Source: Bacilli bacterium (GTDB lineage: Bacteria; Bacillota_I; Bacilli_A; ML615J-28; CAG-313). From it: DNA of 57,660 nt. Below, one piece after another: positions 16,532 through 48,570 of this stretch. The first letter of the stretch is position 1. Every line of letters starts with the position of its first letter. Under the pieces are notes generated by a model. That model worked only from the letters and a program-made list of their open reading frames with translations. It ran no database searches and was not told where the DNA came from. The stretch spans positions 1 through 57,660 of the forward strand of contig JAFVWY010000016.1 of NCBI GenBank assembly GCA_017501465.1, given 5' to 3'. The translations under genes were made by a program, and so were the position numbers.

Positions 16532-16551
16532 AAAAAAAAGAGGTGAAAAAA

Positions 16552-17349
16552 ATGAAAGTTTTTATTAGTTGTGATATAGAAGGAGTAAATAATATTATTA
16601 GTTGGGATGAAACAGGAGTTAATTCTAGTGAATACAACTATTTTAGAAAACAAATGACTGATGAAGTTAAATTTGCATCTTTAGGTGCAAAAGATGCAGG
16701 AGCTGATTTAGTTTTTGTAAAGGATGCTCATGATTGGGCTAGAAACCTAATATTAAGTGATTTACCTGAATTTGTAACTTTACATAGGGGTTGGGAAGGA
16801 TGCCCTTGTAGTATGATGGCAGGGCTTGATGAAACATTTGATGCTGTTATCTTTATTGGCTATCATAGTCCGGCTGGAAGCGATGGAAATCCATTAGCTC
16901 ATACAATGAACTTAAAAAATAGTTATGTAAAAATTAATGGCGTACTTGCTAGTGAATTCTATATAAATGCTTTATACGCTGCATATTTAAAAGTACCGGT
17001 AGCATTTTTAAGCGGAGATTTAAATCTTACTCAAATGGTAAAAGAAGTAAACGAAAATATTGCTACTGTTGCAACTAAAGAAGGAAGACATGGAGCTGTC
17101 GTAAGTCGTCATCCTAATATTACAAATGAGTTAATTAAAAAAGAAGTTAATAAAGTCTTACAAACAGATTTAAAAAATAATATTATTAAACTTCCACAAT
17201 CTTTTGAAGTAGAGATTAAGTATAAAAAATTTACAGACGCATATAATGCTTCTTTTTATCCAGGTTGTGAATTAATACAAAATGACACTATAATCTATAG
17301 AAATAATGATTATTATGAGGTTCTAAGAGCTTTAAAGTTTATTTTATAA
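16552..17349 (+). CDS. M55 family D-aminopeptidase (DppA-like)
   Basis: A 265-residue cytoplasmic zinc aminopeptidase of family M55. Metal ligands of DppA are recognisable: Asp8 and Glu10 in CDIEG, His60 in KDAHDW, the His of GYHSPAG and the later His of LAHTMN. DppA of Bacillus releases N-terminal D-amino acids from peptides and is linked to peptidoglycan peptide use. ATG 16552 is preferred over GTG 16543, which is part of the RBS AAGAGGTG. Monocistronic. Confidence 0.85.
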   Translation: MKVFISCDIEGVNNIISWDETGVNSSEYNYFRKQMTDEVKFASLGAKDAGADLVFVKDAHDWARNLILSDLPEFVTLHRGWEGCPCSMMAGLDETFDAVIFIGYHSPAGSDGNPLAHTMNLKNSYVKINGVLASEFYINALYAAYLKVPVAFLSGDLNLTQMVKEVNENIATVATKEGRHGAVVSRHPNITNELIKKEVNKVLQTDLKNNIIKLPQSFEVEIKYKKFTDAYNASFYPGCELIQNDTIIYRNNDYYEVLRALKFIL

Positions 17350-18848: not shown

Positions 18849-20411
18849 ATGAAGAAAAAAATAACAATATATGATCGAGGGAAAAAAATTACAAAAACAG
18901 TGAGCGTAATACCTTTTAGATATATTATTGCGGTGTTAATTTCGATATTAGAAATTTTAAGTATTATTGGAATTGTGGTTTTATTAACTATTTATATTCC
19001 TTATTTTTATATACTAATATATGCAACTATTATATTGTTAGTAATAGGGATTATAGGTTCTCATGATAATCCTGATTATAAAATCCCATGGATATTAGTA
19101 GTTATTCTTTTACCAATCATAGGTATGATGTTATATTTTATTTTTAATGAAAGAAAACTACCAAAGAGATTTTTGAAAAAATATCATAAGCATTTTAACA
19201 GTTTAATTTATGACGATAGTAAAAATCATCAAGAATTAGAAGAGACTGATAAGTTAATTTCAACTTACGCAAAAGGTTTATGTAAAATATCTGGTACCCA
19301 TTTATACAAAAATACTAAGTTAGAGTATTATAAAATTGGCGAAGAAATGCATCAAAGTATTTTAAAAGAATTGGAAAAAGCTCGAAAGTTTATATTCCTA
19401 GAGTTTTTCATAATTGAAAAAGGTGTTTTTTGGAATTCAATTTTAGAAATATTAAAAACCAAAGTACAAGAAGGTGTAGAAGTAAAGGTAGTTTATGATG
19501 ATTTTGGCTGTATGAATACTTTAAAAGGCAATTATTATAAACAATTAAGAGAATTTGGCATAGATTGTGTGTTATTTTCTAAGTTAAAAGCCGCAGCCGA
19601 TGGCGAATTTAATAATCGAAGTCACAGAAAAATATTAGTTATTGATGGATTGGTGGCATTTACTGGTGGAGTTAATATCGCTGATGAGTATATTAATGAG
19701 GTTACAAGATTTGGCCATTGGAAAGATACTGGTATTAAACTTGAAGGAGAAGCTGTTAAAGAGTTAACTAAATTATTTATTACAGATTACTATATCAACC
19801 TTAAAAAAGATGTTGAACTTGACTATTCTAAATATTATGTTCAAAACATTAAAAATGCTAATTCATATGTTATCCCTTTTGGCGATGGACCCAATCCTAT
19901 TTATGTTGAAAATGTCGGTAAAAATGTAATTATAAATATTTTAAATCAAGCAAAAGAATATGCTTATATTACAACTCCTTATTTAATAACAGACAATGAA
20001 GTTTTAAAAACAATTCAAAACACTGCATTAAGAGGAATTGACGTGAGAATTATTACTCCTCATATTCCAGATAAAAAAATTGTTTTTGAGTTAACTAGAA
20101 GTAATTATGATGTTTTAATACAAAGTGGCGTCAAAATATATGAATATGAGCCTGGATTTATCCACGCAAAATCATATGTTTCTGACGATACATTAGGCAT
20201 GATAGGGACTATAAATTTAGATTATCGTAGTCTTACACACCATTTTGAAAATGGAGTATGGATTTATAATGATGAAGTATTAATTGATATGAAAAATGAT
20301 TTCTTAGAAACTTTATCTAAATCTATTTTAATAGAACATAAAATGTTGAAAGTTTCACCAATTAGAAAATTATTTAGATCAATTTTAAAATTATTTTCAC
20401 CAATGTTTTAA
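18849..20411 (+). CDS. cls: Cardiolipin synthase
   Basis: A 520-residue phospholipase D superfamily enzyme with two N-terminal membrane segments (about 23-70 and 78-100), the Bacillus-type Cls layout. HKD motif 1 is HRKILVID (His259) and motif 2 is HAKSYVSD (His439), each followed by the expected Gly/Asn-rich stretch (GGVNIADEY and GTINLDYRS). It condenses two phosphatidylglycerols to cardiolipin and glycerol at the membrane. RBS AGGTGAT. TATAAT at 18827-18832 is the likely -10. Monocistronic. Confidence 0.92.
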   Translation: MKKKITIYDRGKKITKTVSVIPFRYIIAVLISILEILSIIGIVVLLTIYIPYFYILIYATIILLVIGIIGSHDNPDYKIPWILVVILLPIIGMMLYFIFNERKLPKRFLKKYHKHFNSLIYDDSKNHQELEETDKLISTYAKGLCKISGTHLYKNTKLEYYKIGEEMHQSILKELEKARKFIFLEFFIIEKGVFWNSILEILKTKVQEGVEVKVVYDDFGCMNTLKGNYYKQLREFGIDCVLFSKLKAAADGEFNNRSHRKILVIDGLVAFTGGVNIADEYINEVTRFGHWKDTGIKLEGEAVKELTKLFITDYYINLKKDVELDYSKYYVQNIKNANSYVIPFGDGPNPIYVENVGKNVIINILNQAKEYAYITTPYLITDNEVLKTIQNTALRGIDVRIITPHIPDKKIVFELTRSNYDVLIQSGVKIYEYEPGFIHAKSYVSDDTLGMIGTINLDYRSLTHHFENGVWIYNDEVLIDMKNDFLETLSKSILIEHKMLKVSPIRKLFRSILKLFSPMF

Positions 20412-20438
20412 AAAGAAAGTGTATCACTTTCTTTTTTT
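20411..20438 (+). terminator. Terminator of cls
   Basis: AAAGAAAGTG-TAT-CACTTTCTTT followed by a T-run. Confidence 0.85.
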
Positions 20439-20451
20439 TAATATTTAATTT

Positions 20452-20467
20452 ATTCAAACGTTTTCAT
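20452..20467 (+). promoter_or_regulatory. cre-like operator overlapping a -35 region
   Basis: ATTCAAACGTTTTCAT resembles a catabolite-responsive element (AACG/CGTT centre, AT-rich arms) with about two mismatches. It covers the -35 position of the promoter at 20482-20490. Confidence 0.35.
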
Positions 20468-20481
20468 AAAAAAATTAATAA

Positions 20482-20490
20482 TGTTATAAT
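20482..20490 (+). promoter_or_regulatory. Extended -10 promoter of the giant lipoprotein gene
   Basis: TGT-TATAAT (20482-20490). Transcription would start near 20497, which excludes an in-frame ATG at 20495 as the translation start. Confidence 0.6.
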
Positions 20491-20521
20491 AAGTATGAAA
20501 ATAAATGAAATGGAGAATTTT

Positions 20522-23500
20522 ATGAAAAAAACATTATTATTTGTCTTTTCTTTATTTTTAGGTTTTAGTCTTTTTGGTTGTCAAATGGGCGGATCTGGAA
20601 ATGGAGGCGGTGGTGATAGTTATATTCAAACACCATCATTAAAATTAAAAGAAGTTGAACCATTGAAAATTGGTGAAACAGTTGAATTAAAATGTACATT
20701 AACATTAATTAATGGTACAGTTGAATTTTCTAGTTCAAATGAAAAAGTAATTACTGTTTCAGATAAGGGAGTAGTAGAAGCAATAAGTTCTGGAACTGCA
20801 ACTATAACAGCAAAACTTACTACGACTGATAATTTAACTTATCAAGATGAAATAGAAATTATAGTTGAAAAGAATGAAGAAGAACATATTCATGAGTTTG
20901 TTGAAGGCAAATGTGAGTGTGGGGAAGTTGATCCTGATTATGTTCCACCAGTAGAGGATAAAGAAGCTCCAGTATTTAATAAAACGGGATCTTATAAAGA
21001 TGTTTATGAATTAAATTGGGGCAAGACTTTTGATCCATTTGAAGATGTTGATGTTGTGGATAATGTAGAAGGTAATATCAACGATAAAGTTGAAATTGTT
21101 ACTGATTTGAATAATAAGAAATATGGTGAATATACTGTAACTTATAAAGCAAGTGATGATAGTGGAAATGAAAGTGAATTAGTTAGAACAGTTAAAGTTG
21201 TTTGGAATTATGATGTTCAATTTATTGGCCATGCGGGAAGTTATTATGGCTTAATGAATTCAGAAGAAGCGGTATTATACGCAATTGAAAAATTACAATA
21301 CCAAGCAATTGAAGTAGATATCAAACAATCTAAAGATGGTGTATTTATCTTATGCCATGACGATACATTTGGTGGATATACTTTAGCTGAAACTAATTGG
21401 GATGTTTTAAAAGATGTTGAAGTAACATCAAGTAGAAACAGTGGTTATCCATCACAAAATGGAAGTGTTACTAATTCTCCATACACAGCAAAATTATTAA
21501 CATTAGAAAGATTCTTACAAATTTGTAAAGAGTATAATGTAAAACCTGTTCTAGAACTAAAAGCATCTAAAGGTATTACAAGTGGAGATCAATCTAGAAT
21601 GGATGAATTAATGGCTCTAGTAGAATCTAAGGGCGATTTAAATAATACTATTATTTTAACTTCACAATTAAATTGTTTAATTTGGTTAAGAAATAATGGA
21701 TATAATAATATAGAATGTCAATATTTAGTTAATTCGTTAGAAAATCAATCAACTCTTAATAATTGTAAGAATTATAATTTTACAGTTTCTATTAATGTAA
21801 CTGCTACTTATTCAAATAGTGATGAGTGGGTATTTAAATATCAAGATGCTGGTATTAAAATATCAACATATACATTTACACAATATGTAAACTATAGTGA
21901 AGTTCAAAAATGGATAAATATTGGTGTAGATTACGTTACTTGTGATTGGCATAAGATGGATGAATTAAATTTAGAACCATCACCTATTGAAAAATACACT
22001 GTTACTTTTAAAGACTATGATGGAGAAGTATTAGGTGTGTCAACTGTTGGTAAAAACGGAAGTGCAACAGCTCCTGCTAACCCTAAAAGACAAGGATATG
22101 AATTTACTGGTTGGGATAAGAGTTTTGATAAAGTAACTAGTAATTTGGTCGTTACTGCAACATATACTCAAGTTAAAAATGCGATTATCTATATTTATGA
22201 AGATGGTAGTCCAGAAGAATCTGTATGTACTTCAGTTCAAGAGTTTGCTGAAGTATTCTGGCAAGAATTATATACATGGAGTGGTTCAACTAAAGCATTC
22301 GAAACATTTAAATCTGAAGCTTTAGCAAAATGGAAAGCAGGTAATGCTTATAATGATGCTAAGGTATATTCACAAGGTGCAAAAGGTGAATTATTAGAAG
22401 GTTATTTTGTATCATCTAAAGCAAATTATGATAGATGGATGCCTTGGATGATGGCTTTTGATACTCAAGTAAATGCTATTAATAAAGATCAAACAGCTTG
22501 GGGAAGTACTTATGTTGGTTATTTAAGATTATATGCATTATTACAACAAAGTGCATCATATTGGACTGCTGCTCGTAATGAAGCAGTTTATTCTACAATG
22601 ACTAAGCGAGCTGTTTTACCTACAGAATATGTTACAGGTATTGAAATTGAAATCCCTGAATTATATGTTACTGATGGTAGAACATTCCTAGGTTGGTATG
22701 ATCAAAATGGTAATTTAGTTACAAAAGTTGGCGCTACACAAACTGGTCAAGTGATTTTAACTGCAAAATGGAGTGATTCAACTCGTGCAGAATCATTTGA
22801 AATTACCCAACCGGAAAGAATAGTTAAATTTGATTCTTATCAATTAGTGTGGTCATTTACTCCTAGTAATACAACTAATAAGAAAGTTAAATTTAATTCT
22901 AGTGATAATAGCATTTTATCTATCAATGAAGATGGTGTTATTACAACTTATAAAGAAGGGGTAGTAACTATTACAGTTGAAGTATTAGATAATCAAGCTT
23001 TTAATAAAGTTTGGGAAGTCGAAGTATATTTTGACCCATTTATTGATGGAAGCTATAATGATTCTTCAGTTATGAAAATTGGTGATTCACAAGTACTTGA
23101 TGCAACTTTATATGGTTTAAGTGATTCACTAGTTTGGACTTCTCTAAATCCTAGTATTGCTACTGTTAATAATGGTGTTGTTACTGGTATTGCAAAAGGA
23201 TATGCAGAAATAAAAGTAAGTGCAGCAACTAATAGCAATGTTTATTTTGTTTTTGGTATCACTGTTGTTGATGAAGAAGATGATGCTTTCTTTAGTATTA
23301 TTAATGATGCTCATAATGCAGAAACTCATGTTACGCGTGATTTGCATGTTGCCTATGACTATTTCACTGATGTATTCGTAAGTGCTTCTGATTTATTATT
23401 TAATTGGGAATACTATGTAGATAGAAGTTTTGAAGATTCAAGTTATACTAACCACTCTGGCAAAATGTCAAGTGTAGAATTTATCACAGTTCACTATACT

Positions 23501-24388
23501 GCTGGTACTTCAACAGGTAGCAATGCAAAAGCTACAGCTAACTATATGGCAGGTAACTCAAGTGTATCAATTCACTATACTACTGGTAATGATGGTATTT
23601 TTAGTGTATTAGATGATTCATTAAAAGCATGGCATGCTGGCGATGGTACTGGTACTGTCTTTGAATGGATTCCAACAGGTGTTACAGCAAGTGAAAATGT
23701 AAAACCTGAATGGGGTGTAATTGCAAATAATTCATCTTCAACTGGTTATTATTTTACATTAAATGGTAAAGCAACAACAATTGAAGTTCCAATGACGGGA
23801 ACAACATCAAGTGGAGCTACAAAGACTTTAACTAATCCTGGAGAAAGATTTACATATTATGGTCCTGCTTGGAAAGTAGTTAATGGCGAGTATTATATGG
23901 GTACTACTTGGGTATGTTTCACACAAGTTTGGGAAGGTGCTATCTCTAGTAGAGGCGGTAATAATAACTCGATTGGTATTGAGTCAGCATGTAATAAAGG
24001 TTCTGACTTATGGTACACTTATCAAATAACAGCACAACTAGTTGCTCATTTAGTTGAACAAAATAATTTAGATTTAACAAGAGTAGTAGGACATAATATG
24101 TTCTCAGGTAAAGATTGTCCTCAAACTTTACTTGCAAATAATGGCGAACTTTGGGAAATCTTTATGGAAGCTGTTGAAGCTGAATATAAGATGTTAACTC
24201 AAATGAGTGATTATTCTATCACTTGTAAATCTAATAATCCTGATATCTTATCAGATAATGGTAGAATAGTATCTATTCCTAGATATTCAACTACAGTTAG
24301 TTATACTGTAACAGTTACAAATAATACAACTGGTGTTTCTAAGACTAATACTTATTCAACAATTGTTCATGGTGAATATACAGAATAA
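20522..24388 (+). CDS. Giant lipoprotein: GDPD domain fused to N-acetylmuramoyl-L-alanine amidase
   Basis: 1288 residues, lipid anchor at Cys20 (SLFGC). In order: Big_2 Ig-like domain (about 40-115), one HxH/CxCG module (122-140), DUF5011-like Ig domain (about 148-230), GDPD domain (about 232-490) with His237, Glu264/Asp266 and His279 in the family positions (HAG replaces HRG), Flg_new units (about 492-550 and 700-755), a helical insert, two further Big_2-like domains (about 760-925) and an Amidase_2 domain (about 980-1215) with His991, Glu1154, His1191 and Cys1199. It should cut glycerophosphodiester bonds and the MurNAc-L-Ala link outside the membrane. ATG 20522 follows GGAG. Monocistronic, one step after cls. 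Confidence 0.85.
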   Translation: MKKTLLFVFSLFLGFSLFGCQMGGSGNGGGGDSYIQTPSLKLKEVEPLKIGETVELKCTLTLINGTVEFSSSNEKVITVSDKGVVEAISSGTATITAKLTTTDNLTYQDEIEIIVEKNEEEHIHEFVEGKCECGEVDPDYVPPVEDKEAPVFNKTGSYKDVYELNWGKTFDPFEDVDVVDNVEGNINDKVEIVTDLNNKKYGEYTVTYKASDDSGNESELVRTVKVVWNYDVQFIGHAGSYYGLMNSEEAVLYAIEKLQYQAIEVDIKQSKDGVFILCHDDTFGGYTLAETNWDVLKDVEVTSSRNSGYPSQNGSVTNSPYTAKLLTLERFLQICKEYNVKPVLELKASKGITSGDQSRMDELMALVESKGDLNNTIILTSQLNCLIWLRNNGYNNIECQYLVNSLENQSTLNNCKNYNFTVSINVTATYSNSDEWVFKYQDAGIKISTYTFTQYVNYSEVQKWINIGVDYVTCDWHKMDELNLEPSPIEKYTVTFKDYDGEVLGVSTVGKNGSATAPANPKRQGYEFTGWDKSFDKVTSNLVVTATYTQVKNAIIYIYEDGSPEESVCTSVQEFAEVFWQELYTWSGSTKAFETFKSEALAKWKAGNAYNDAKVYSQGAKGELLEGYFVSSKANYDRWMPWMMAFDTQVNAINKDQTAWGSTYVGYLRLYALLQQSASYWTAARNEAVYSTMTKRAVLPTEYVTGIEIEIPELYVTDGRTFLGWYDQNGNLVTKVGATQTGQVILTAKWSDSTRAESFEITQPERIVKFDSYQLVWSFTPSNTTNKKVKFNSSDNSILSINEDGVITTYKEGVVTITVEVLDNQAFNKVWEVEVYFDPFIDGSYNDSSVMKIGDSQVLDATLYGLSDSLVWTSLNPSIATVNNGVVTGIAKGYAEIKVSAATNSNVYFVFGITVVDEEDDAFFSIINDAHNAETHVTRDLHVAYDYFTDVFVSASDLLFNWEYYVDRSFEDSSYTNHSGKMSSVEFITVHYTAGTSTGSNAKATANYMAGNSSVSIHYTTGNDGIFSVLDDSLKAWHAGDGTGTVFEWIPTGVTASENVKPEWGVIANNSSSTGYYFTLNGKATTIEVPMTGTTSSGATKTLTNPGERFTYYGPAWKVVNGEYYMGTTWVCFTQVWEGAISSRGGNNNSIGIESACNKGSDLWYTYQITAQLVAHLVEQNNLDLTRVVGHNMFSGKDCPQTLLANNGELWEIFMEAVEAEYKMLTQMSDYSITCKSNNPDILSDNGRIVSIPRYSTTVSYTVTVTNNTTGVSKTNTYSTIVHGEYTE

Positions 24389-24390
24389 TA

Positions 24391-24424
24391 AAAAAATGTA
24401 GATACTTTGGTATCTACTTTTTTT
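24391..24424 (+). terminator. Terminator of the giant lipoprotein gene
   Basis: GTAGATAC (24398-24405) pairs with GTATCTAC (24410-24417), then seven T. Confidence 0.85.
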
Positions 24425-24462
24425 AAAACATTTAATTACTTTAAGACAATATTTATTAATTG

Positions 24463-24471
24463 TGATATAAT
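24463..24471 (+). promoter_or_regulatory. Extended -10 promoter of the MBL-sda-alkD operon
   Basis: TGA-TATAAT at 24463-24471, 23 bp before the ATG. Confidence 0.6.
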
Positions 24472-24493
24472 AATACTAAGAAGAGGTGTGAAA

Positions 24494-25690
24494 ATGAGTA
24501 GAAGAAACCATCGAACAAGTTCTTTTAAAAATCTAATTGTTTCTTTATTATTTTTGATAATATTAGGAATTATAGGGTATTTTGTTTATCCTATAGTGGT
24601 TGAACTTTTACATGAACATGGCTTTATAGAAGGTAAATGTGAATGTGGGGAACTTGATCCGAATTATGTTCCACCACATATTCATGAATATATAGATGGA
24701 GTATGTAGTTGTGGGAAACTTGATGAAAGTACATCAGTTATTCAAAGTGATACTTTAAGTATACATTTTATGGAACTTGGAAATAAATATACTGGTGATT
24801 CTATATATATTAAGGCTGGGGAAACAGATATTTTAATCGATGCTGGTTCACGCGGTAATAGTGCTGATGATATTACAAATTATCTTAATCAATATGTAGA
24901 AGATAATACATTAGAATATGTAATCGCCACACACGCTCATCAAGATCACATTGCTGGCTTTGTTGGTACGAGTCAAATTAAAGGAATTTTTGATGAATTT
25001 ATCTGTGAGGTTATTATCGATTTTTCTTTAACTAATGCGACTAGTAAAGTTTATCAAAATTATGTTGAAAAAAGAGATTTAGAAGTGCAAAATGGCGCGA
25101 CACATTATACAGCATTAGAATGTTATAATAATCTTAATGGTGCATCAAGAAAATTTGAATTATCTGATGGAATAGAATTAGAAATACTTTATAACTACTA
25201 TTATGAAAATAAAACATCAAATGAAAATGATTATTCTGTTTGTTTAATGATTAATCAAAATGATAAACATTTCTTATTTACGGGTGATTTAGAAGATAAA
25301 GGTGAAGAAAAACTAGTTGAATATAATGATCTACCTGAGGTTGAATTATTTAAAGCAGGACATCATGGTTCTTATACAGCGAGTACGCTTACTTTATTAG
25401 AAGTAATTAAGCCTAATATTGTTTGTGTGTGTTGCTGCTGTGGTAGTGATGAATATACTGATGTTATTGATAACATGTTCCCTTCACAAGCTTTTATTTC
25501 AAGAGTATTAAAATATACCGAAAAAATTTATGTGACTTCAATTATATCAGATAATGAAGATGGTTTTACATCGCTAAATGGAAACATTAATATTATATCT
25601 GATGGTAAAGAGGTTATAGTTAATTGTTCAAATAATAATACTGTTTTCAAAGATACTGAGTGGTTTAAAGAAAACAGAAAATGGGAGTAA
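24494..25690 (+). CDS. Membrane-anchored ComEC/Rec2-like metallo-beta-lactamase protein
   Basis: 398 residues with one N-terminal membrane segment (about 13-35) instead of a lipobox. Two HxH/CxCG modules follow at about 40-80. Then comes an MBL-fold domain like the C-terminal part of ComEC/ComA: HAHQDH at 147-152, FTGDLEDKGE, and KAGHHGSYTAS. An unusual cysteine run, CVCCCCGS, stands where ComEC relatives have a shorter strand-turn. The fold is a metal-dependent hydrolase; in ComEC it is implicated in degrading the non-transported DNA strand, but no channel domain is present here. ATG 24494 follows AGAGGTG; a longer frame would start inside the upstream terminator. Confidence 0.82.
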   Translation: MSRRNHRTSSFKNLIVSLLFLIILGIIGYFVYPIVVELLHEHGFIEGKCECGELDPNYVPPHIHEYIDGVCSCGKLDESTSVIQSDTLSIHFMELGNKYTGDSIYIKAGETDILIDAGSRGNSADDITNYLNQYVEDNTLEYVIATHAHQDHIAGFVGTSQIKGIFDEFICEVIIDFSLTNATSKVYQNYVEKRDLEVQNGATHYTALECYNNLNGASRKFELSDGIELEILYNYYYENKTSNENDYSVCLMINQNDKHFLFTGDLEDKGEEKLVEYNDLPEVELFKAGHHGSYTASTLTLLEVIKPNIVCVCCCCGSDEYTDVIDNMFPSQAFISRVLKYTEKIYVTSIISDNEDGFTSLNGNINIISDGKEVIVNCSNNNTVFKDTEWFKENRKWE

Positions 25691-25696
25691 TAATTT

Positions 25697-26881
25697 ATGG
25701 ATTCAATTAAAAATATCTATAAAACAGGACGTGGTCCTTCATCATCACATACGATGGCTCCACAAAATGCTGCTACTATTTTTAAAAGTAAATATCCTGA
25801 TGCAGCTATGTATTCTGTGGAACTATATGGCTCTTTAGCTTTAACTGGCAGAGGGCATTTAACTGATAAGGTTATTCTAGAAACCTTAGGCAGTGATAAA
25901 ACTAAAATTATTTTTAACTATGATGAAGTTTTTAAATATCATCCTAATGCTATGAAGTTTAAAGCTTATAATGAAGATGGAACTCGAATTAGTAAATGGT
26001 TGGTTTTTAGTGTAGGTGGTGGTGAGTTAAAGGAAATGAATGAACCACGTGATGAATCGCTTGAAGAAATTTATTTTGAGTCAAATATGGAAGAAATATT
26101 AGAATGTTGTCGCGATGATAATATTTCATTAGTTGAATATATTGATAAATATGAAAACCTTAATGAATATTTAAATTATATTTGGACGGTGATGCAAACA
26201 ACTATTTTAAAAGGGCTAGAAACTAGTGGTGTGCTACCTGGAAAACTTCAAGTTAGAAGAAAAGCTAAAGAGTTCTATGAACAATATAAAACGAAAAAAC
26301 TAAAAGAAATATATTCTTATGCGGCAGCCCTTGCTGTTTCTGAAGAAAATGCAAGTGGTGGAATAGTTGTTACCGCGCCTACTTGTGGAGCAAGTGGAGT
26401 TGTTCCGGCTGTTTTAGCATATGCTAAAGAAATTGATGGAGCTAAAGATGAGGCTATTATTAATGCTTTAAAGGTTGCTGGTTTAATAGGTTTACTTGCT
26501 AAAAATAATGCATCGATTAGTGGAGCAGAAGTTGGATGTCAAGGAGAGGTTGGTGTGGCTTGCAGTATGGCAGCGGCTGCTTATGCTTATTTGATTGGTG
26601 GTACTAATGAACAAATAGAATATGCGGCAGAAATTGCATTAGAACACCACCTAGGCTTAACTTGTGACCCTGTCAATGGAGAGGTTCAAATTCCTTGTAT
26701 TGAAAGAAATGCTATTGCCACATCTAAAGCAATCACAGCTGCAAAATATGCTATGTTAACGGATGGAAGTCACTACATTAGTTTAGATCATGTTATTCAA
26801 ACAATGAAAGAAACTGGTCTTGATTTATCGAGTAAGTATAAAGAAACATCAAAAGGTGGCCTTGCTTTAAGAGATAAATAA
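25697..26881 (+). CDS. L-serine dehydratase, iron-sulfur type, single chain
   Basis: A 394-residue fusion of beta and alpha parts. The beta part begins GPSSSHTMAP; the alpha part has APTCGASGVVPA, GCQGEVGVACSMAAAA, LTCDPVNGEVQIPCIERN and KAITAAKYAM. The cysteines in these motifs are the [4Fe-4S] ligands of the family. It deaminates L-serine to pyruvate and ammonia in the cytoplasm and is oxygen-sensitive, fitting an anaerobe. It is shorter than E. coli SdaA (454 residues), mainly in the beta part. Six bases separate it from the MBL gene, and its last base overlaps the next ATG. Confidence 0.92.
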   Translation: MDSIKNIYKTGRGPSSSHTMAPQNAATIFKSKYPDAAMYSVELYGSLALTGRGHLTDKVILETLGSDKTKIIFNYDEVFKYHPNAMKFKAYNEDGTRISKWLVFSVGGGELKEMNEPRDESLEEIYFESNMEEILECCRDDNISLVEYIDKYENLNEYLNYIWTVMQTTILKGLETSGVLPGKLQVRRKAKEFYEQYKTKKLKEIYSYAAALAVSEENASGGIVVTAPTCGASGVVPAVLAYAKEIDGAKDEAIINALKVAGLIGLLAKNNASISGAEVGCQGEVGVACSMAAAAYAYLIGGTNEQIEYAAEIALEHHLGLTCDPVNGEVQIPCIERNAIATSKAITAAKYAMLTDGSHYISLDHVIQTMKETGLDLSSKYKETSKGGLALRDK

Positions 26882-27558
26882 TGAAAACATACAAAGAAGA
26901 ATTATTAATATTAAGAAGAGAAAAGTTAAAAGAATTTAATAAAAACTTAATACCTAATTTAGATAAAGAACTAATTGGAGTATCTAATCCAAATATTAAG
27001 AAACTTTCAAAAAATGTAGATTATGAATTCTTAGAAAACTTGCCTCATAAATACTATGAAGAAGATATTTTACATGGTTATATGTTAGCTAATTTAAATT
27101 TAGATTTTGATAAAACAATAGAAGAAATTGAAAAGTTTTTACCTTATGTTACTAATTGGGCTGTTTGTGATACAATGTGTAAAAATATAAAAGCTTTTAA
27201 AAATGATAGGAAAAAATTGTTTGATAAAAGTCTTGAGTGGTGTCGAACAAACAAAACTTATTATATAAGATTTGGCTTATCTATGCAGTTAAGTTATTGT
27301 TTAACTGATGAATTTATTGATGATATCATTGATAACATTTATACAATTTCTAACCATGATTATTATTGTGATATGATGATTGCTTGGTTACTTGCAACTA
27401 TAATGATTAATTATGAAAACAAGGTTTTTGATGCTTTAAAACAGAATAAGCTAAATGTTTTTATAAAAAGAAAAACCATATCCAAAGCCATTGATAGTTT
27501 TAGAATTAGTGATAATACAAAGATGAAATTAAAAGAATTAAGAAAGTTCTTATTTTAG
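26881..27558 (+). CDS. AlkD-like DNA alkylation repair protein
   Basis: 225 residues, all helical, matching the DNA alkylation repair (AlkD, HEAT-like) family: NPNIKKLSK near the start, NWAVCDTMC near 97-105, then YIRFGLSMQLSYC and YYCDMMIAWLLATI. The Trp and Asp in NWAVCD correspond to the region that holds the alkylated base in AlkD. It removes positively charged alkylpurines such as N7-methylguanine. One-base overlap with the serine dehydratase gene; the terminator overlaps its stop. Confidence 0.85.
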   Translation: MKTYKEELLILRREKLKEFNKNLIPNLDKELIGVSNPNIKKLSKNVDYEFLENLPHKYYEEDILHGYMLANLNLDFDKTIEEIEKFLPYVTNWAVCDTMCKNIKAFKNDRKKLFDKSLEWCRTNKTYYIRFGLSMQLSYCLTDEFIDDIIDNIYTISNHDYYCDMMIAWLLATIMINYENKVFDALKQNKLNVFIKRKTISKAIDSFRISDNTKMKLKELRKFLF

Positions 27559-27572
27559 AACTTTCTTTTTTT
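27541..27572 (+). terminator. Terminator overlapping the alkD-like stop
   Basis: AGAAAGTTCT (27541-27550) pairs with AGAACTTTCT (27557-27566), then a T-run. Confidence 0.85.
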
Positions 27573-27603
27573 AAAGCAAAAGAAGATTGCAAGTGCAATT
27601 TGT

Positions 27604-27632
27604 TTTACAAATATATATTATTTTGATACAAT
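27604..27632 (+). promoter_or_regulatory. Promoter of the ABC exporter operon
   Basis: TTTACA (27604-27609), a 17-nt spacer and TACAAT (27627-27632) with TGA before it. Confidence 0.65.
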
Positions 27633-27659
27633 AAATATGTTATTTAAGGATGTGATATT

Positions 27660-29405
27660 ATGACTAGAAAAAAACGTACAAATGTTTTAAGATATCTAAG
27701 ACCTTATTGGTGGATCGCATTACTTGCTGCCTTAGCAATGGTAGGAGAGGTAATTTGTGATCTAGAATTACCAATGCATATGGCTAAAATTATAGATATC
27801 GGTATCAAAAAAAACCAAATGAGTGTTATTTACGAACATGGCATTTATATGTTATTGATTGCTATAGCTGGGAGCATTGGTGGGTTCTTATCTGCTTTAT
27901 TTGGATCAATATCATCTAGAAAATTTGGTAATAGTCTAAGAAAAGCTACATTTAAAAAAGCTCTAAATTTTTCTTGGGAACAAACAGATAAAGTAACAAC
28001 TGGCTCATTAATTACTAGAATTACTAATGATGTTATGACTTTACAAATGTTAGTGTCAATGAGTGTAAGAATGTTTGTTCGAACTATTATGTTATTCTGT
28101 GGTGGAATAGGTTATATGGTAAGAATTAATCCTAAATTTGGTTTAATCTTATTAATTGTATTACCAATTGAAATATTAGTAATCTTTATTTTCCTAAGAA
28201 AAGTAAATCCAATGTTTGTGCAAGTTCAAGAAAGTTTAGATTCTGTTAACGAAGTAATGCAGGAAAATGTTAATGGTTCACGTGTGGTTAAGACCTTTAC
28301 TAATGAAGAAAAAGAATCAAATAGATTTGATAGAGTTTCTAAAAATTTATCAAATAAATCTATTAGAGTATCTAAATTACTTGCCTATATGTCACCTTTC
28401 CAAATATTATTTTTAAATATTACAGTTATTTCTATTTTGTATATTGGGGGAAATGAAGTATTAGCTGGTACTGGTATGCAAATAGGGGAAGTTAGTGCAT
28501 CCCTTACATACATTACACAAATATTAAATGCCGTCATGAGTATGGGTCACTTATTCCAAACTGTTGCAAGAGGAATAGCAAGTGGAAGAAGAATTCAAGA
28601 TATTCTAAATACAGAACCAACAATTGTTTCAGGCGGTACATCTTTAGATATTTTAGGTAATGTTGAATTTAAAGATGTTTGTTTTAAATATCGAACTTCT
28701 TCCAATGATATCCTAACTAACATTAACTTTGAAGTAAAACAAGGAGAATCATTAGCTATTTTGGGTGCGACAGGTAGTGGTAAAACAACCATTGTTAATC
28801 TAATACCTCGTTTTTATGATTGTTATAGTGGTAGTGTTTTAGTAGATGGGGTTGATGTTAAAGAATATGATTTGAAATCTTTAAGACAAAGTATTAGTTT
28901 GGTATTACAAAAATCGGAATTATTTACAGGTAGTATTTTTGATAATATTAGATGGGGTAAACCAGATGCTACCCTTGAAGAAGTAAGAGAGGCTTGTAGA
29001 ATTGCTCAAGCAGATGATTTCATTATGAGCTTTAATGATGGGTATGATACAATCATTGGCGAAAAAGGGTCAAGTTTAAGTGGTGGTCAAAAACAAAGGG
29101 TTTGTATTGCTAGAGCAATACTAAAGAAACCTAAAATTTTAATCTTTGATGATGCTACTAGTGCTCTTGATTTAAATACAGAAGCAAGACTTTATAAAGC
29201 ATTGAAAGAATATATGAGTGATGTAACAATTATTTTGATTGCTCAAAGAGTAGCCTCAGCTAAAGGAGCGGAAAAAATAATGGTTATTGATGATGGTGAG
29301 ATTAAAGGTATTGGTACAAACGATGAATTATTAAAAACTAATGAGGTTTACCAAGATATTTATTATTCACAATTAAAGGCAAATGGAGGTGAAGATGATG
29401 AATAA
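27660..29405 (+). CDS. ABC exporter half-transporter with degenerate ATPase site
   Basis: 581 residues: six membrane segments (about 15-310) plus an ATPase domain with Walker A GATGSGKTT (about 370), signature LSGGQKQR and Walker B ILIFDDATSALD. The catalytic glutamate after Walker B is Asp, and the switch histidine is Gln (IAQRVAS). This is the pattern of the degenerate-site subunit in heterodimeric exporters such as BmrCD, LmrCD and TM287/288. Its partner is the next gene, which overlaps it by 8 bp. Likely a multidrug or lipid exporter; the substrate is unknown. Confidence 0.9.
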   Translation: MTRKKRTNVLRYLRPYWWIALLAALAMVGEVICDLELPMHMAKIIDIGIKKNQMSVIYEHGIYMLLIAIAGSIGGFLSALFGSISSRKFGNSLRKATFKKALNFSWEQTDKVTTGSLITRITNDVMTLQMLVSMSVRMFVRTIMLFCGGIGYMVRINPKFGLILLIVLPIEILVIFIFLRKVNPMFVQVQESLDSVNEVMQENVNGSRVVKTFTNEEKESNRFDRVSKNLSNKSIRVSKLLAYMSPFQILFLNITVISILYIGGNEVLAGTGMQIGEVSASLTYITQILNAVMSMGHLFQTVARGIASGRRIQDILNTEPTIVSGGTSLDILGNVEFKDVCFKYRTSSNDILTNINFEVKQGESLAILGATGSGKTTIVNLIPRFYDCYSGSVLVDGVDVKEYDLKSLRQSISLVLQKSELFTGSIFDNIRWGKPDATLEEVREACRIAQADDFIMSFNDGYDTIIGEKGSSLSGGQKQRVCIARAILKKPKILIFDDATSALDLNTEARLYKALKEYMSDVTIILIAQRVASAKGAEKIMVIDDGEIKGIGTNDELLKTNEVYQDIYYSQLKANGGEDDE

Positions 29406-31233
29406 TAATCGTTTTCAACCTAATAGAAATATGCGTTTTGGTAGAGGTCCAAGACATTTATTTAGAGAAAAACCAAAAGATACTAAAGGAGCTTTAAAAA
29501 GATTAATTAAATATTTAGGTGGATTTAAAAGTTTAATTATTAGTTTATTATTTGTTATTTTAATATCTACTGCGTCATCAATTGCCTCACCAATTGTTCA
29601 AAGTGAAATTACCAATGCAATTAACTTTGGTAATAAAGAAACTTTTATTATGTTACTATATGTACTAGCAGTTTGTTATATCTTAAATATTTTTTGTTCT
29701 TTATTTAGAGGTTTAATTTCTGCTTATCTTTCTCAAAGAACAGTTCTAAAAATAAGAAAAGAATTATTTGATAAAATTGTTTATTTACCAATTAGTTTCT
29801 TTGATAATAATCCTCATGGGGATATTATGAGTAGAATGACAAACGATGTTGATTCAATATCTAGTACAATATCACAAAGTGTAGCCGCTTTACTTTCAAC
29901 TGTTATGATTATTCTAGGTGCAATTACAGTTATGTTATTATTTAGTCCATTGCTTGCTTGTGTGGCTTTATTTATAGTGGGACTTACATTAGTATTCTCT
30001 CGTTTTATGTCTAGTAAGATGCGTAAGTATTTTAAAATCCAACAACAAATGTTAGGTGATATTAATAGTAAAGTTGAAGAAAGCATTACAGGTCAAAAAA
30101 CTGTAAGTGCATATACTAGAGAAGAAGCAATAGAAAAAGATTTTAACGAAACAAGTGATTTATTAGAAGGATATGCCATTAAAGCTCAAATTTATGGAGG
30201 AGCGATGGGACCAGTTATGAATGTAATTGGTAATTTTGGTTTCTTACTTGTAGTAGTTTTTGGCGCCATTTTCCATAACTTAGAAATTGGTGCTGGGTTG
30301 TTTGGTCCCATTGAAATTGGTACAATCATTTTATTTACTAATTGTAGTAGACAAATAAATAGACCACTAAATGAAGTGGCCCAATTATATGCTCAAATTG
30401 AAACAAGCTTAGCGGCAGCAGAAAGGGTATTTGCTGTTATGGATGAAGAGGTTGAAAATGATGAAGGTACTATTACTTTAGATGAAGATTTTGAAGTAGA
30501 GACAATTAGTTTTGAACATGTATACTTTTCATATGTCCCTGATGAACCCGTTTTAGTAGACTTTAATTTAGAAATAGAAAAGGGTCAAAAAATTGCATTA
30601 GTTGGTGCAACAGGAAGTGGTAAAACAACTGTTGTTAATCTATTGATGAGATTTTATGATATTGATGCAGGTAGTATCAAAATTAATGGTATTGATATTA
30701 GAGATATTAAAAAACAAGATTTAAGAAATATTATTTCAATTGTTTTACAAGATACTGTACTATTTACAGATTCTATCGAAAATAATATTAAATATGGTAA
30801 AACTGATGCTACTGATGATGAGGTAAAAGAGTCATCTAAACTGGCTAATTCTCATCGTTTCATTAAACATTTACCAGATCAATATAAAACTCATCTAGCT
30901 AATTCTGGTTATAACTTATCACAAGGTCAACGTCAATTATTAACAATTGCGCGAGCTGCAATCACTAATCCTTTAATTTTAGTACTTGATGAGGCTACTT
31001 CATCAGTTGATACTAGAACTGAAAAAAATATTCAGGATGCTATGGTAAATTTAATGAAAAACAGAACTAGTTTAATTATTGCTCATAGACTATCTACAAT
31101 TAGAGATGCAGATAAAATTGTTGTAATGGAAAAGGGTAAAGTTAAAGAAATTGGTAATCATTTTGAATTAATTAAATTACAAGGAATTTATTATTCTTTA
31201 TACCAAACACAATTTTCTGGTAATACAATATAG
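29398..31233 (+). CDS. ABC exporter half-transporter, partner subunit
   Basis: 611 residues with six membrane segments and an ATPase domain with Walker A GATGSGKTT, signature LSQGQRQL, Walker B LILVLDEATSSVD and switch IAHRLST. Glu and His are both present, so this subunit supplies the canonical catalytic residues. The signature reads LSQGQ instead of LSGGQ, a variant also known in heterodimer partners. GGAGGTG at 29385-29391 favours ATG 29398; ATG 29395 is also possible. Confidence 0.9.
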   Translation: MNNNRFQPNRNMRFGRGPRHLFREKPKDTKGALKRLIKYLGGFKSLIISLLFVILISTASSIASPIVQSEITNAINFGNKETFIMLLYVLAVCYILNIFCSLFRGLISAYLSQRTVLKIRKELFDKIVYLPISFFDNNPHGDIMSRMTNDVDSISSTISQSVAALLSTVMIILGAITVMLLFSPLLACVALFIVGLTLVFSRFMSSKMRKYFKIQQQMLGDINSKVEESITGQKTVSAYTREEAIEKDFNETSDLLEGYAIKAQIYGGAMGPVMNVIGNFGFLLVVVFGAIFHNLEIGAGLFGPIEIGTIILFTNCSRQINRPLNEVAQLYAQIETSLAAAERVFAVMDEEVENDEGTITLDEDFEVETISFEHVYFSYVPDEPVLVDFNLEIEKGQKIALVGATGSGKTTVVNLLMRFYDIDAGSIKINGIDIRDIKKQDLRNIISIVLQDTVLFTDSIENNIKYGKTDATDDEVKESSKLANSHRFIKHLPDQYKTHLANSGYNLSQGQRQLLTIARAAITNPLILVLDEATSSVDTRTEKNIQDAMVNLMKNRTSLIIAHRLSTIRDADKIVVMEKGKVKEIGNHFELIKLQGIYYSLYQTQFSGNTI

Positions 31234-31258
31234 AAGACATCAAATGTCTTCTATATTT
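31231..31258 (+). terminator. Hairpin at the end of the ABC exporter operon
   Basis: TAGAAGACAT pairs with ATGTCTTCTA across CAA. The T-tract is interrupted (TATTTAATTTT), so strength is uncertain. Confidence 0.5.
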
Positions 31259-31376
31259 AATTTTAAGGCCTAAAAAACGCTTATTTTGACATTTTTTTAA
31301 TAATTATGACTAATTATTCATTTTCGTTTCCTTTTACTTTTTTTAATAAATAAAGTATAATAAAAGTGGTGATAAT

Positions 31377-32609
31377 ATGGGAAAAAATAACAAAAAGAAA
31401 AAAGAAAAGATTTTAATGCCTGTATGGCTTAATATAATATTTACCCTAGGTTCTAAAGTAATATTATTGTTTTTAACCAAAATTAAACATAATAGAAAAG
31501 CTTTAAAAAATCACAAAGAAGGTTTTTTACTATTATATAATCACTATTCTAATAAAGATCATTTTATTATTAAGGATGCTTTAAATTTTAGAAGAGTAAA
31601 TTATGTAGTAGCAAGTTCTTATTTATTAACTAAACCAGTAGGTCCGATTCTTAGAATGGCAAGAGCCATTAGTAAGGAACAATTTAAACCAGACTTGGTT
31701 GCGATTAGAAAAATTAAAAAATCGATTGATCAAAAAGGAATAGTTGCGATTGCTCCTACTGGTCAAACAACAGTAGATGGTAATCCATCATTTATGCCTG
31801 ATACAATTGTTAAACTAATTAAACTTGTTAAATCTGATGTAGTTGCTTTAAAAAGTAAGGGAAGCTATTTATGTTTTCCAAAGTGGCGAGGATCTAAAAG
31901 AAAATGTCGAATCCAAACAGAATTTGTTACAGTATTAAAAAAAGAAGAACTTAAAACTTTATCAGATCAAGAAATTTTTGAACGTGTATATGATGCTATT
32001 TATGTTAGTGAAGATGCTGATCAATTAACTTTAAAAAGAGTTATTAAAGGCAAAAGTTTAATACAAGGATTAGAAAATATTTTTACAGTTTGTCCTAAGT
32101 GTAATAATAGACATTCTTATATATCAATTGGTAATAAACTTATTTGTGAAAAATGTAAGAATGAAATAACTATGGATAAGTATGGTTTCTTACATCCATT
32201 AAAAGATAGTGATATTTGTTTTGATACGGTAAGTAAGTGGCTATCTTGGGAGAAAGATTTTTTAGGTAAGGAATTTATTAATGGATATATTTATCAAGAA
32301 GATGTAATTTTGAAATCTAATTTAAAAGATCCACTTAAGATGGAAGAAATAGGTAGTGGTAAAATTATTTTATCTAAAGATGAATTTAAACTAGTTGGTA
32401 AAATTTTAGATCAAGATGTGGAAAAAGTATATAAAATGGAACAAATTCCTCAATTACCATTTGATCCAGGAGTACGTTTTGAAATCCCTAATGAAGAAAT
32501 GTTCTTGCGAGCATATCCAAATGATCCTAAATCAGTAATGGATTATGTTTTAATATTTGACTATTTAAATGATTTAAAACTTATTAAGGAAAATAATCAT
32601 GAAAATTAA
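31377..32609 (+). CDS. PlsC-like acyltransferase with C-terminal zinc ribbon
   Basis: 410 residues. The N-terminal half has a hydrophobic helix (about 15-38) and an LPLAT-like domain: NHYSNKDH is an H-x4-D motif and AIAPTGQTT sits where PlsC has its FPEGTR motif. From about 235 the protein departs from PlsC: a CPKC...CEKC zinc ribbon (about 240-263), then about 145 residues of unknown fold. An acyl-CoA or acyl-ACP lysolipid acyltransferase is the likely base activity. The last 11 bp overlap the next gene, an RNA methyltransferase. Confidence 0.7.
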   Translation: MGKNNKKKKEKILMPVWLNIIFTLGSKVILLFLTKIKHNRKALKNHKEGFLLLYNHYSNKDHFIIKDALNFRRVNYVVASSYLLTKPVGPILRMARAISKEQFKPDLVAIRKIKKSIDQKGIVAIAPTGQTTVDGNPSFMPDTIVKLIKLVKSDVVALKSKGSYLCFPKWRGSKRKCRIQTEFVTVLKKEELKTLSDQEIFERVYDAIYVSEDADQLTLKRVIKGKSLIQGLENIFTVCPKCNNRHSYISIGNKLICEKCKNEITMDKYGFLHPLKDSDICFDTVSKWLSWEKDFLGKEFINGYIYQEDVILKSNLKDPLKMEEIGSGKIILSKDEFKLVGKILDQDVEKVYKMEQIPQLPFDPGVRFEIPNEEMFLRAYPNDPKSVMDYVLIFDYLNDLKLIKENNHEN

Positions 32610-33927
32610 TACAACTAAATTAAATGATTTTTTTCAATCTCCTATTGAAATATCTGGAAAAACTTATTTTTTAAATAATGTTTTAGAAAATGAAACATTA
32701 GAAGTAAGTATCAATAAGGAAAAAAGAACCATTAAAATTGATAAAATTATTAATGCTTCTAAATATCGAATCAAACCAAAATGTGATATTTATGAAACGT
32801 GTGGTGGATGTAAATTACTACATGTTGAATATAATCACCAATTATATTTAAAAACTGAAATGGTTAAAAGACTATTTAAGGAGAATAATATAAAAGCAAC
32901 CGTTTTAGACACTTTAGGTATGGATAATCCAACGGAATATCGTAATAAAAATCAAGTTGTTTTTGGTTATAATAATCAAAGAAAAGTAGTAAGTGGTTTT
33001 TATGAAGAAAATACACATAAAATAGTTAATTTTACTACATGTTATTTACAAGATAAAGTATCTGATAAAATTGTCAACACTATTAAAGATTTAATGATGA
33101 AAATGCGTATAATGCCATATGATGAGGATAAACAAAAAGGTTTAATTCGCCATGTAATGGTTAAAAGAAGTAAACTATTAAATGAAACAATGGTTATTAT
33201 AGTTACATCTAGTGATGTTTTCCCGGGTAGAAATAATTTCTTAAAAGCTTTACTTGCTTCAAATAAAGAAATTACTACGGTTATTCAAAATATAAACTCT
33301 AGAAAAACAACTCAAGTTTTAGGAGATAAAGAGATTGTTCTTTTTGGAAAAGGCTATATTAATGATTGTTTATGTGATAAGAAGTTCAAAATCTCTTCTA
33401 AGTCTTTTTATCAAATAAATCCAATCCAAACGAAAGTTTTATATCAAAAAGCATTAGATAACGCACACTTATCAAAAACGGATGTTTTACTAGATGCTTA
33501 TTCTGGTGTTGGCACTATTGGTATTATTGCCAGTGATAAAGTATCAAAAGTAATTAGTGTAGAACTTGAAAAACAAGCTGTTAATGATGCGATTATTAAT
33601 GCAAAATTAAATAATATTAAAAATATTCATTTTTATAATGATGACGCGACGCGATTTATTAATAATTTAGTAAACAAAAAAGAAAAAATTGATGTTGTTG
33701 TAATGGATCCACCAAGAAAAGGAAGTACAGAGAGTTTCTTAAAGGCTGTCCTTAAATTAAAACCTAAGAAGATTATTTATATCTCATGTGATCCTCATAC
33801 TCAAGTTGTTGATTTAAAGTCATTAGTTAATGATTATAATATAACTTATGTTCAACCTGTTGATATGTTCCCTCACACTCAACATGTCGAAAATATTGTT
33901 GTTTTAAATCACAAACATTATATTTAA
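32599..33927 (+). CDS. TrmA/RlmD-family 23S rRNA (uracil-5-)-methyltransferase
   Basis: 442 residues. A CDIYETCGGCKLLH cluster (C-x5-C-x2-C, about 55-70) matches the [4Fe-4S] motif of RumA/RlmD. The SAM domain has DAYSGVGTIGIIAS, VVMDPPRKGS and the nucleophile loop ISCDPHTQ. A clear N-terminal TRAM domain is shortened. It methylates a uracil C5 in 23S rRNA; the exact position (RlmD or RlmCD type) cannot be told. The 11-bp overlap with the acyltransferase gene suggests translational coupling. Confidence 0.9.
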   Translation: MKINTTKLNDFFQSPIEISGKTYFLNNVLENETLEVSINKEKRTIKIDKIINASKYRIKPKCDIYETCGGCKLLHVEYNHQLYLKTEMVKRLFKENNIKATVLDTLGMDNPTEYRNKNQVVFGYNNQRKVVSGFYEENTHKIVNFTTCYLQDKVSDKIVNTIKDLMMKMRIMPYDEDKQKGLIRHVMVKRSKLLNETMVIIVTSSDVFPGRNNFLKALLASNKEITTVIQNINSRKTTQVLGDKEIVLFGKGYINDCLCDKKFKISSKSFYQINPIQTKVLYQKALDNAHLSKTDVLLDAYSGVGTIGIIASDKVSKVISVELEKQAVNDAIINAKLNNIKNIHFYNDDATRFINNLVNKKEKIDVVVMDPPRKGSTESFLKAVLKLKPKKIIYISCDPHTQVVDLKSLVNDYNITYVQPVDMFPHTQHVENIVVLNHKHYI

Positions 33928-36302: not shown

Positions 36303-36741
36303 TCTTTTAATAGAAAAATGTCGTAACTTGGTAGATAAAGATTTACCACTGGTTTCTAATCTTGCTAATATTTCTCGTTTAATTTACGAAGAAATAAATA
36401 ATACTTGTTGGGCAGGATTTTATATGTGTGATAATTTAAAACAAGTAATGTATTTAGGCCCATTTCAAGGGCCAGTTGCTTGTACTACAATATCTTTTTC
36501 AAAAGGTGTATGTGGGGCTTGTGTGAGATCAAAAAAGCCAGTCCTTGTTCCTGATGTTCATCAATTCCCTGGTCATATTGCATGTTATAGTTTAACTAAT
36601 TCTGAAGTGGTTGTGCCAATCATTCATGATGATTTAGTAATAGGTGTAATAGATTTGGATAGTACTAATTTTAATAATTATACAGAAGAGGATATTAAAA
36701 CCTTAGAAGAAATTGCTAAAATTGTTTCAAGTTTATTATAA
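36295..36741 (+). CDS. Free methionine-(R)-sulfoxide reductase (GAF domain)
   Basis: 148 residues, a single GAF domain. GPFQGPVAC, GVCGAC and FPGHIAC carry Cys63, Cys73 and Cys97; the 10 and 24 residue spacings equal those of the catalytic cysteines in fRMsr. It reduces free Met-R-sulfoxide in the cytoplasm. Start ATG 36295 lies inside the end of the small membrane protein gene. Last gene of the operon. Confidence 0.92.
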   Translation: MNNLLIEKCRNLVDKDLPLVSNLANISRLIYEEINNTCWAGFYMCDNLKQVMYLGPFQGPVACTTISFSKGVCGACVRSKKPVLVPDVHQFPGHIACYSLTNSEVVVPIIHDDLVIGVIDLDSTNFNNYTEEDIKTLEEIAKIVSSLL

Positions 36742-36745
36742 AAAT

Positions 36746-36773
36746 AAAGCCGTTTTATTAAAAACGGCTTTTT
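36746..36773 (+). terminator. Terminator of the degV operon
   Basis: AAAGCCGTTTT pairs with AAAACGGCTTT around ATTA, then T. Confidence 0.88.
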
Positions 36774-36828
36774 ATATATTTCCAAAAACAAATTTTTTAT
36801 TACTCTTCATAAAAAAAACAATTAAAAG

Positions 36829-36837
36829 TGATATAAT
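36829..36837 (+). promoter_or_regulatory. Extended -10 promoter of the RNase-GH3 operon
   Basis: TGA-TATAAT at 36829-36837. Confidence 0.55.
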
Positions 36838-36862
36838 TATAGCAATTAAAGAGGTATTAAAA

Positions 36863-39789: not shown

Positions 39790-39804
39790 TTAAAAATTAA
39801 TAAT

Positions 39805-39840
39805 AATCAGTTGTACAAAATTTCTGGACAACTGATTTTT
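39805..39840 (+). terminator. Terminator of the GH3 gene, overlapping the next promoter
   Basis: AATCAGTTGT (39805-39814) pairs with ACAACTGATT (39828-39837), then T. The 3' arm contains most of the -35 of the following promoter. Confidence 0.7.
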
Positions 39841-39853
39841 GTTTTGTTATAAT
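39825..39853 (+). promoter_or_regulatory. Promoter of the amidase-gdhA operon
   Basis: TGGACA (39825-39830), a 17-nt spacer and TATAAT (39848-39853) with TGT before it. Confidence 0.7.
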
Positions 39854-39869
39854 AAAATAAGGTGATAAG

Positions 39870-48491: not shown

Positions 48492-48570
48492 ATTTTCTTT
48501 ACATATATTTATTATATTTCTATTCATTTTTTAATAAATAGTGTATAATTATGTTATATTGGAGGAATTT

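Follow-up and report, generated by a model that had tools for sequence, protein, structure and literature searches.

The window, by which we mean the whole 57,660-nucleotide stretch analysed here, is contig C12 of a 1.56-Mb MAG (22 contigs, 97% complete). The host is a gut member of the Bacilli, of Acholeplasmatales type and related to the mycoplasmas, and its relatives in the genome collection are MAGs from gut and rumen that carry the labels Acholeplasmatales, Anaeroplasma, Bacilli or Erysipelotrichaceae. Positions 20522-24388 of the forward strand form a single uninterrupted frame, stop codon included, encoding a predicted lipoprotein of 1288 residues (Table 1). The enclosing ORF (20495-24388) contains 1297 open codons, and the preferred start is the ATG at 20522, which has the Shine-Dalgarno sequence GGAG seven bases 5' of it. 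A sequence-only reading of this DNA had placed a glycerophosphodiester phosphodiesterase (GDPD) domain and an Amidase_2 domain on one chain with Ig and Flg_new spacers. This organisation is borne out by the open frame and by Pfam matches that all exceed the curated cut-offs: three stretches of Big_2 (E 1e-18), two copies of Flg_new (E 3e-9), and Bact_surface_Ig, GDPD and Amidase_2.

At the N-terminus, LFGC at residues 17-20 is lipobox-like when read by eye, with Cys20 as the candidate modified residue and an atypical Phe at position -2. The H-x-H-x-F-x2-G-x-C-x-C-G motif that follows the first Ig domain recurs in other surface proteins of the genome, including further proteins of the window. 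A lipoprotein without a Pfam match at 48541-50871 carries four tandem copies of H-x-H-x-F/Y-x2-G-x-C-x-C-G, a motif that may bind metal. A second lipoprotein without a Pfam match (36713-38230) has a C-terminal part that, as a hunch by eye, resembles a barnase-type RNase (YYEIDF...ARLVY...YNHYNDF).

Table 1. Features of the fusion gene and its immediate flanks (positions in the window).
Feature	Position	Strand	Basis
Terminator-like hairpin between cls and fusion gene	20410..20436	+	12-pair stem and T run
Promoter-like site TTTTCA-18-TATAAT, extended TG	20461..20490	+	Consensus scan only
Fused GDPD/Amidase_2 lipoprotein gene	20522..24388	+	Open frame, Shine-Dalgarno, Pfam
Signal peptide and lipobox-like LFGC, residues 1-20	20522..20581	+	Read from sequence
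N-terminal Big_2-like Ig domain, ~residues 40-116	20639..20869	+	Pfam Big_2/Big-like
H-x-H-x-F-x2-G-x-C-x-C-G motif, residues 122-145	20885..20956	+	Self-similarity search of genome
Bact_surface_Ig-like domain, residues 163-226	21008..21199	+	Pfam E 4.5e-10
GDPD TIM-barrel domain, residues 231-487	21212..21982	+	Pfam, alignment, predicted structure
Flg_new repeat 1, residues 492-546	21995..22159	+	Pfam
Unannotated helical spacer 'Hel', residues 553-700	22178..22621	+	Alignment; low model confidence
Flg_new repeat 2, residues 701-752	22622..22777	+	Pfam second stretch, homologues
Two Big_2 Ig domains, residues 753-945	22778..23356	+	Pfam
Amidase_2 domain, residues 984-1201; H991, Y1019, E1154, H1191, K1197, C1199	23471..24124	+	Pfam, alignment, fold match
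84-residue insertion inside Amidase_2, residues 1061-1144	23702..23953	+	Alignment with XlyA and phage amidases
Conserved C-terminal tail, residues 1219-1288	24176..24385	+	Homologues among amidase relatives
Terminator-like hairpin 3' of fusion gene	24398..24417	+	

The promoter-like site and the terminator-like hairpins on both flanks suggest that the fusion gene is a single-gene unit; four terminator-like sites were observed in the scanned region against 0.9 expected. The cls gene directly upstream had been offered as a functional link, which is not upheld. A terminator-like hairpin and the promoter-like site lie between the two genes, and their adjacency is not kept in relatives: the cls orthologue of the sister species G001 is on another contig, and in none of four relatives inspected does cls stand beside such a gene. 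With its own promoter-like site and bounding hairpins, the fusion gene thus has no obvious partner in cls. Two genes 5' of cls lies a Peptidase_M55 D-aminopeptidase gene (16543-17349), whose product could process the D-Ala peptides of peptidoglycan. On the other flank, between the fusion gene and a serine dehydratase gene, 24407-25690 encodes a protein of metallo-beta-lactamase fold that has a membrane segment at its N-terminus and carries the motif H-x-H/C-x-C-G twice; this gene is absent from that position in G001.

The GDPD domain matches the PF03009 profile over residues 244-475 (39.9 bits against a cut-off of 23.6, E 7e-10). In a fold search its predicted barrel, with pLDDT mostly above 85, matched 2pz0 at Z 27.4 (rmsd 1.8 over 226 residues), phage K gp155 at Z 25.9 and B. 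subtilis GlpQ (5t9b) at Z 25.8. GlpQ is an exolytic wall-teichoic-acid hydrolase, or teichoicase, whose catalytic set comprises two histidines and three acidic metal ligands (PMC7086022). The same His/His and Glu/Asp/Glu set is found in the window protein, where H237, E264, D266, H279 and E345 are invariant in all 28 rows of the family alignment, as is the lysine of the ELK motif. GlpQ differs in being a single-domain enzyme. The phage K gp155 / phi812 central spike (9f5m, 9eul) has its GDPD barrel at the end of a multi-domain, envelope-contacting protein; the spike is a virion protein, and its GDPD part alone was compared.

The Amidase_2 domain matches PF01510 at 66.1 bits (cut-off 26, E 5e-18), and its model, of moderate confidence (mean pLDDT 66), shares the fold of B. 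subtilis XlyA (3rdr, 3hmb) with a TM score of 0.87 on the target and an rmsd of 2.4 against 3rdr. H991, E1154, H1191, K1197 and C1199 are invariant in 28 of 28 rows, and the zinc ligands H991, H1191 and C1199 align with those of XlyA and PlyL together with the catalytic E1154. The domain is split by an 84-residue insertion, unmentioned in the sequence-only reading, which is typical of the family (including a 351-aa paralogue encoded at 39870) and missing from XlyA and phage amidases. XlyA is moreover a phage-type endolysin, whereas the window protein is a predicted anchored surface protein. At 38242-40925 a GH3 glycosidase gene is followed at once by a small Amidase_2 gene of the same family, an arrangement that recalls a muropeptide-recycling pair.

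The catalytic positions given for both domains before this analysis (His237, Glu264, Asp266, His279, His991, Glu1154, His1191 and Cys1199) were correct, and none of them varies in the 28-row alignments. E345, the third metal ligand of the GDPD domain, had been left out. Checked by fold and sequence alignment rather than by coordinates, neither domain is without its residue set. Alignment and fold search agree that both sets are kept, the departure being an alanine, Ala238, in place of a GlpQ arginine, to which we return below.

Surface Amidase_2 proteins occur in 40 of the 43 genomes of the order, at up to 15 per genome, and surface GDPD proteins in most genomes of one of its families and several of the other. 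Of ~36 surface GDPD genes (a few of them cut by contig ends) that came from the order's 43 genomes and from scanning 84,980 species genomes, only that of the window shares an ORF with an amidase. The wide scan started from the window's own GDPD subfamily, and GDPD domains of other types may therefore be fused to amidases elsewhere. Fifteen Pfam-scanned amidase relatives contained no second enzyme domain above cut-off. The literature searched yielded no single chain with both enzymes; the one paper that mentions both, a survey of enterococcal phage tail lysins, has them as separate proteins. An origin from phage or plasmid was rejected, as the whole protein drew only weak single-domain matches in tblastn. 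Viral contigs contained distant amidases, and relatives of the window GDPD subfamily were not found in them.

We lean, with moderate confidence, towards a cell-anchored enzyme of chimeric origin that digests foreign envelopes. A lipid-modified Cys20 would tether the protein outside the membrane, with ~200 residues of Ig stalk preceding the GDPD barrel and ~500 residues of spacer preceding the amidase. The GDPD domain would hydrolyse glycerophosphodiesters, whether deacylated phospholipids that lysed cells release or the wall teichoic acid of other Firmicutes where this is poly-glycerolphosphate, and the zinc amidase would cut the MurNAc-L-Ala bond, so that together they would digest the envelopes of other bacteria for nutrients. 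Glycerol-phosphate polymer and peptidoglycan, the joint targets first proposed, would make a chemically sensible pair.

That such substrates would be foreign is suggested by what the genomes lack and what they keep. The Glyphos_transf (TagF) family is absent from 42 of the 43 order genomes, including that of the window, where an LtaS-type sulfatase was likewise not found (the best candidate is an 18-bit partial match below cut-off). Judged from these two families only, polymeric self-substrates for the GDPD domain look absent; the standard teichoic-acid pathway is predicted to be absent in related orders, and peptidoglycan genes are present in 40-60% of Anaeroplasmataceae genomes (PMC10868615). 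Eleven genomes, each at least 90% complete, have no PBP/transpeptidase match and 0-2 Mur-ligase matches, and nine of these keep 7-15 amidases; the peptidoglycan cut in those species would have to come from other bacteria. Amidase counts in walled and wall-less relatives do not differ significantly (p 0.07 at 90% completeness, 0.28 at 85%). An amidase excess in wall-less genomes was rejected as a claim, being a tendency only; at p 0.07 we claim retention and not expansion. PMC5165256 (citing Robinson 1975) and PMC8941964 report Anaeroplasmataceae as bacteriolytic. We also count towards foreign-envelope digestion the GH3 hydrolase that adjoins another amidase in the window, and the D-aminopeptidase.

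A second reading, which we hold to be quite possible if the less favoured, is that two independent scavenging activities sit on a common anchor, with no coupling between them and with the GDPD domain taking glycerol-3-phosphate from deacylated phospholipids rather than from teichoic acid. The two enzymes are encoded by separate genes in every other genome found, and GlpQ-family enzymes generally take varied head groups (PMC10404611, PMC7086022). Nonetheless, the fused frame has stayed open with both catalytic sets intact, and teichoic acid is physically joined to peptidoglycan in many Gram-positive walls.

It seems rather unlikely that the protein is directed at its own producer, the amidase remodelling or recycling a thin wall and the GDPD domain recycling the cell's own phospholipid head groups. 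The window genome keeps two transpeptidases and four Mur-ligase matches, which makes the producer's wall a possible substrate of the amidase, and the GH3/amidase pair could be taken in the same sense. Many amidases, however, are kept in the relatives without PBPs and with 0-2 Mur matches, most walled relatives have 4-13 such proteins, and the TagF and LtaS families are missing from the window genome.

We judge it more doubtful still that the activity of the GDPD domain is lost or altered, such that it would form a cyclic-phosphate product, for instance, or only bind. Arg44 of GlpQ contacts the substrate phosphate (PMC7086022), and this position, the arginine of the HRG motif, is Ala238 in the window protein; among the 28 subfamily rows it is Ala in 21, Gln in 4, Gly in 2 and Arg in 1. 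Activity or specificity may therefore differ from that of GlpQ. Against outright loss, both histidines, the ELK lysine and the three acidic ligands are invariant, a degree of conservation not expected of a dead enzyme. Despite Ala238, the domain is, on its profile match and modelled fold, a variant member of the GDPD superfamily.

The chimeric origin in our preferred reading, that of an anchored enzyme digesting foreign envelopes, is drawn from comparison with G001, where the two halves are two genes. The sister GDPD lipoprotein (790 residues; contig C32, L028:3835-6207) aligns over its full length to residues 1-752 at 57% identity and has the same domain order (Ig, surface-Ig, GDPD, Flg_new, Hel, Flg_new), but stops after the second Flg_new repeat without an amidase, and its gene has neighbours that differ from those in the window. 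The sister amidase protein (1296 residues; contig C4, L029:3789-7679) aligns to residues 513-1286 at 52%, although its N-terminal half consists of Ig and Flg_new repeats without GDPD and the front half of its amidase domain is only ~39% identical. Compared in stretches of 40 residues, the window protein tracks the G001 GDPD gene at ~50-85% identity over residues 121-560; residues 560-680, in the helical spacer, resemble both genes, and residues 680-1288 follow the amidase gene. Furthermore, the fusion gene occupies the G001 amidase locus, with the downstream order SDH-alkD-ABC-ABC-acyltransferase-methyltransferase (serine dehydratase, DNA-alkylation, two ABC, acyltransferase and RNA-methyltransferase genes) kept bar single-gene insertions. 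The switch in identity and the position at the amidase locus point to a recombinant of two paralogues through a common spacer, and the fusion gene thus looks like a chimera of a GDPD and an Ig/Ig/Amidase_2 surface-lipoprotein gene. In a tree of the Flg_new repeat 2/Big_2 spacers the window and the G001 amidase gene group together (support 98/96), whereas their amidase cores do not; the catalytic cores therefore seem to have been exchanged too.

Hel is the probable recombination site. It stands between the two Flg_new repeats, has invariant Phe, Trp, Gln and Arg residues, and recurs in the order's surface proteins, those with GDPD and those with amidase alike; recombination would have run through this helical and Flg_new spacer common to both families. 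Hel has no Pfam match, and the sole matches in a PDB sequence search were antibody chains, none better than E 0.02, which we rejected as noise; the fold search barely probed it, because matches to the GDPD barrel fill the result list.

An artefactual join of two real genes during assembly is very improbable. In its favour, the source is a MAG and the sole genome of its species, the parts are two genes in the sister species, and the upstream gene order is unlike that of the G001 amidase locus. Against it, the genome holds no second, almost identical version of any part of the gene (the best is 94% over 47 bp), the longest exact repeat, against the other own-genome amidase genes fetched, is 29 bp, GC content does not jump inside the gene, and no dangling halves were seen. 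Moreover, flanking genes on either side, a Na/H exchanger (2922) and the downstream block (25697-33927), have their counterparts within a single 20-kb stretch of contig C4 in G001. A dangling amidase half was sought beside the FeoB-like gene that neighbours the amidase gene in G001; the 50% match on contig C21 of the window genome has no amidase fragment adjoining it.

A bolder proposal, which we consider rather unlikely, is that the fusion represents a new envelope-digesting architecture. Here the anchored phosphodiesterase would strip a foreign wall of its teichoic acid and the amidase would then cut that same wall; the arrangement would have arisen by domain exchange in a bacteriolytic lineage, some of whose members have no wall and feed on bacteria that do.

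Taken alone, this is one fusion in one genome. It illustrates how surface enzymes can be rebuilt by module swaps through common spacer domains, and the protein could serve as a bifunctional wall-degrading enzyme. Across the order, 7-15 surface Amidase_2 proteins are kept by genomes that lack PBPs and have few Mur-ligase matches or none, and this suggests that wall-less gut Bacilli live by digesting peptidoglycan. Rumen Anaeroplasma has been described as bacteriolytic; the literature searched names no lytic enzymes for it, and the window protein family offers concrete candidates for enzymes of this type. Retention of the family in relatives without peptidoglycan synthesis makes the idea of wall feeding directly testable: wall-less gut bacteria with surface amidases would feed on the walls of other bacteria.
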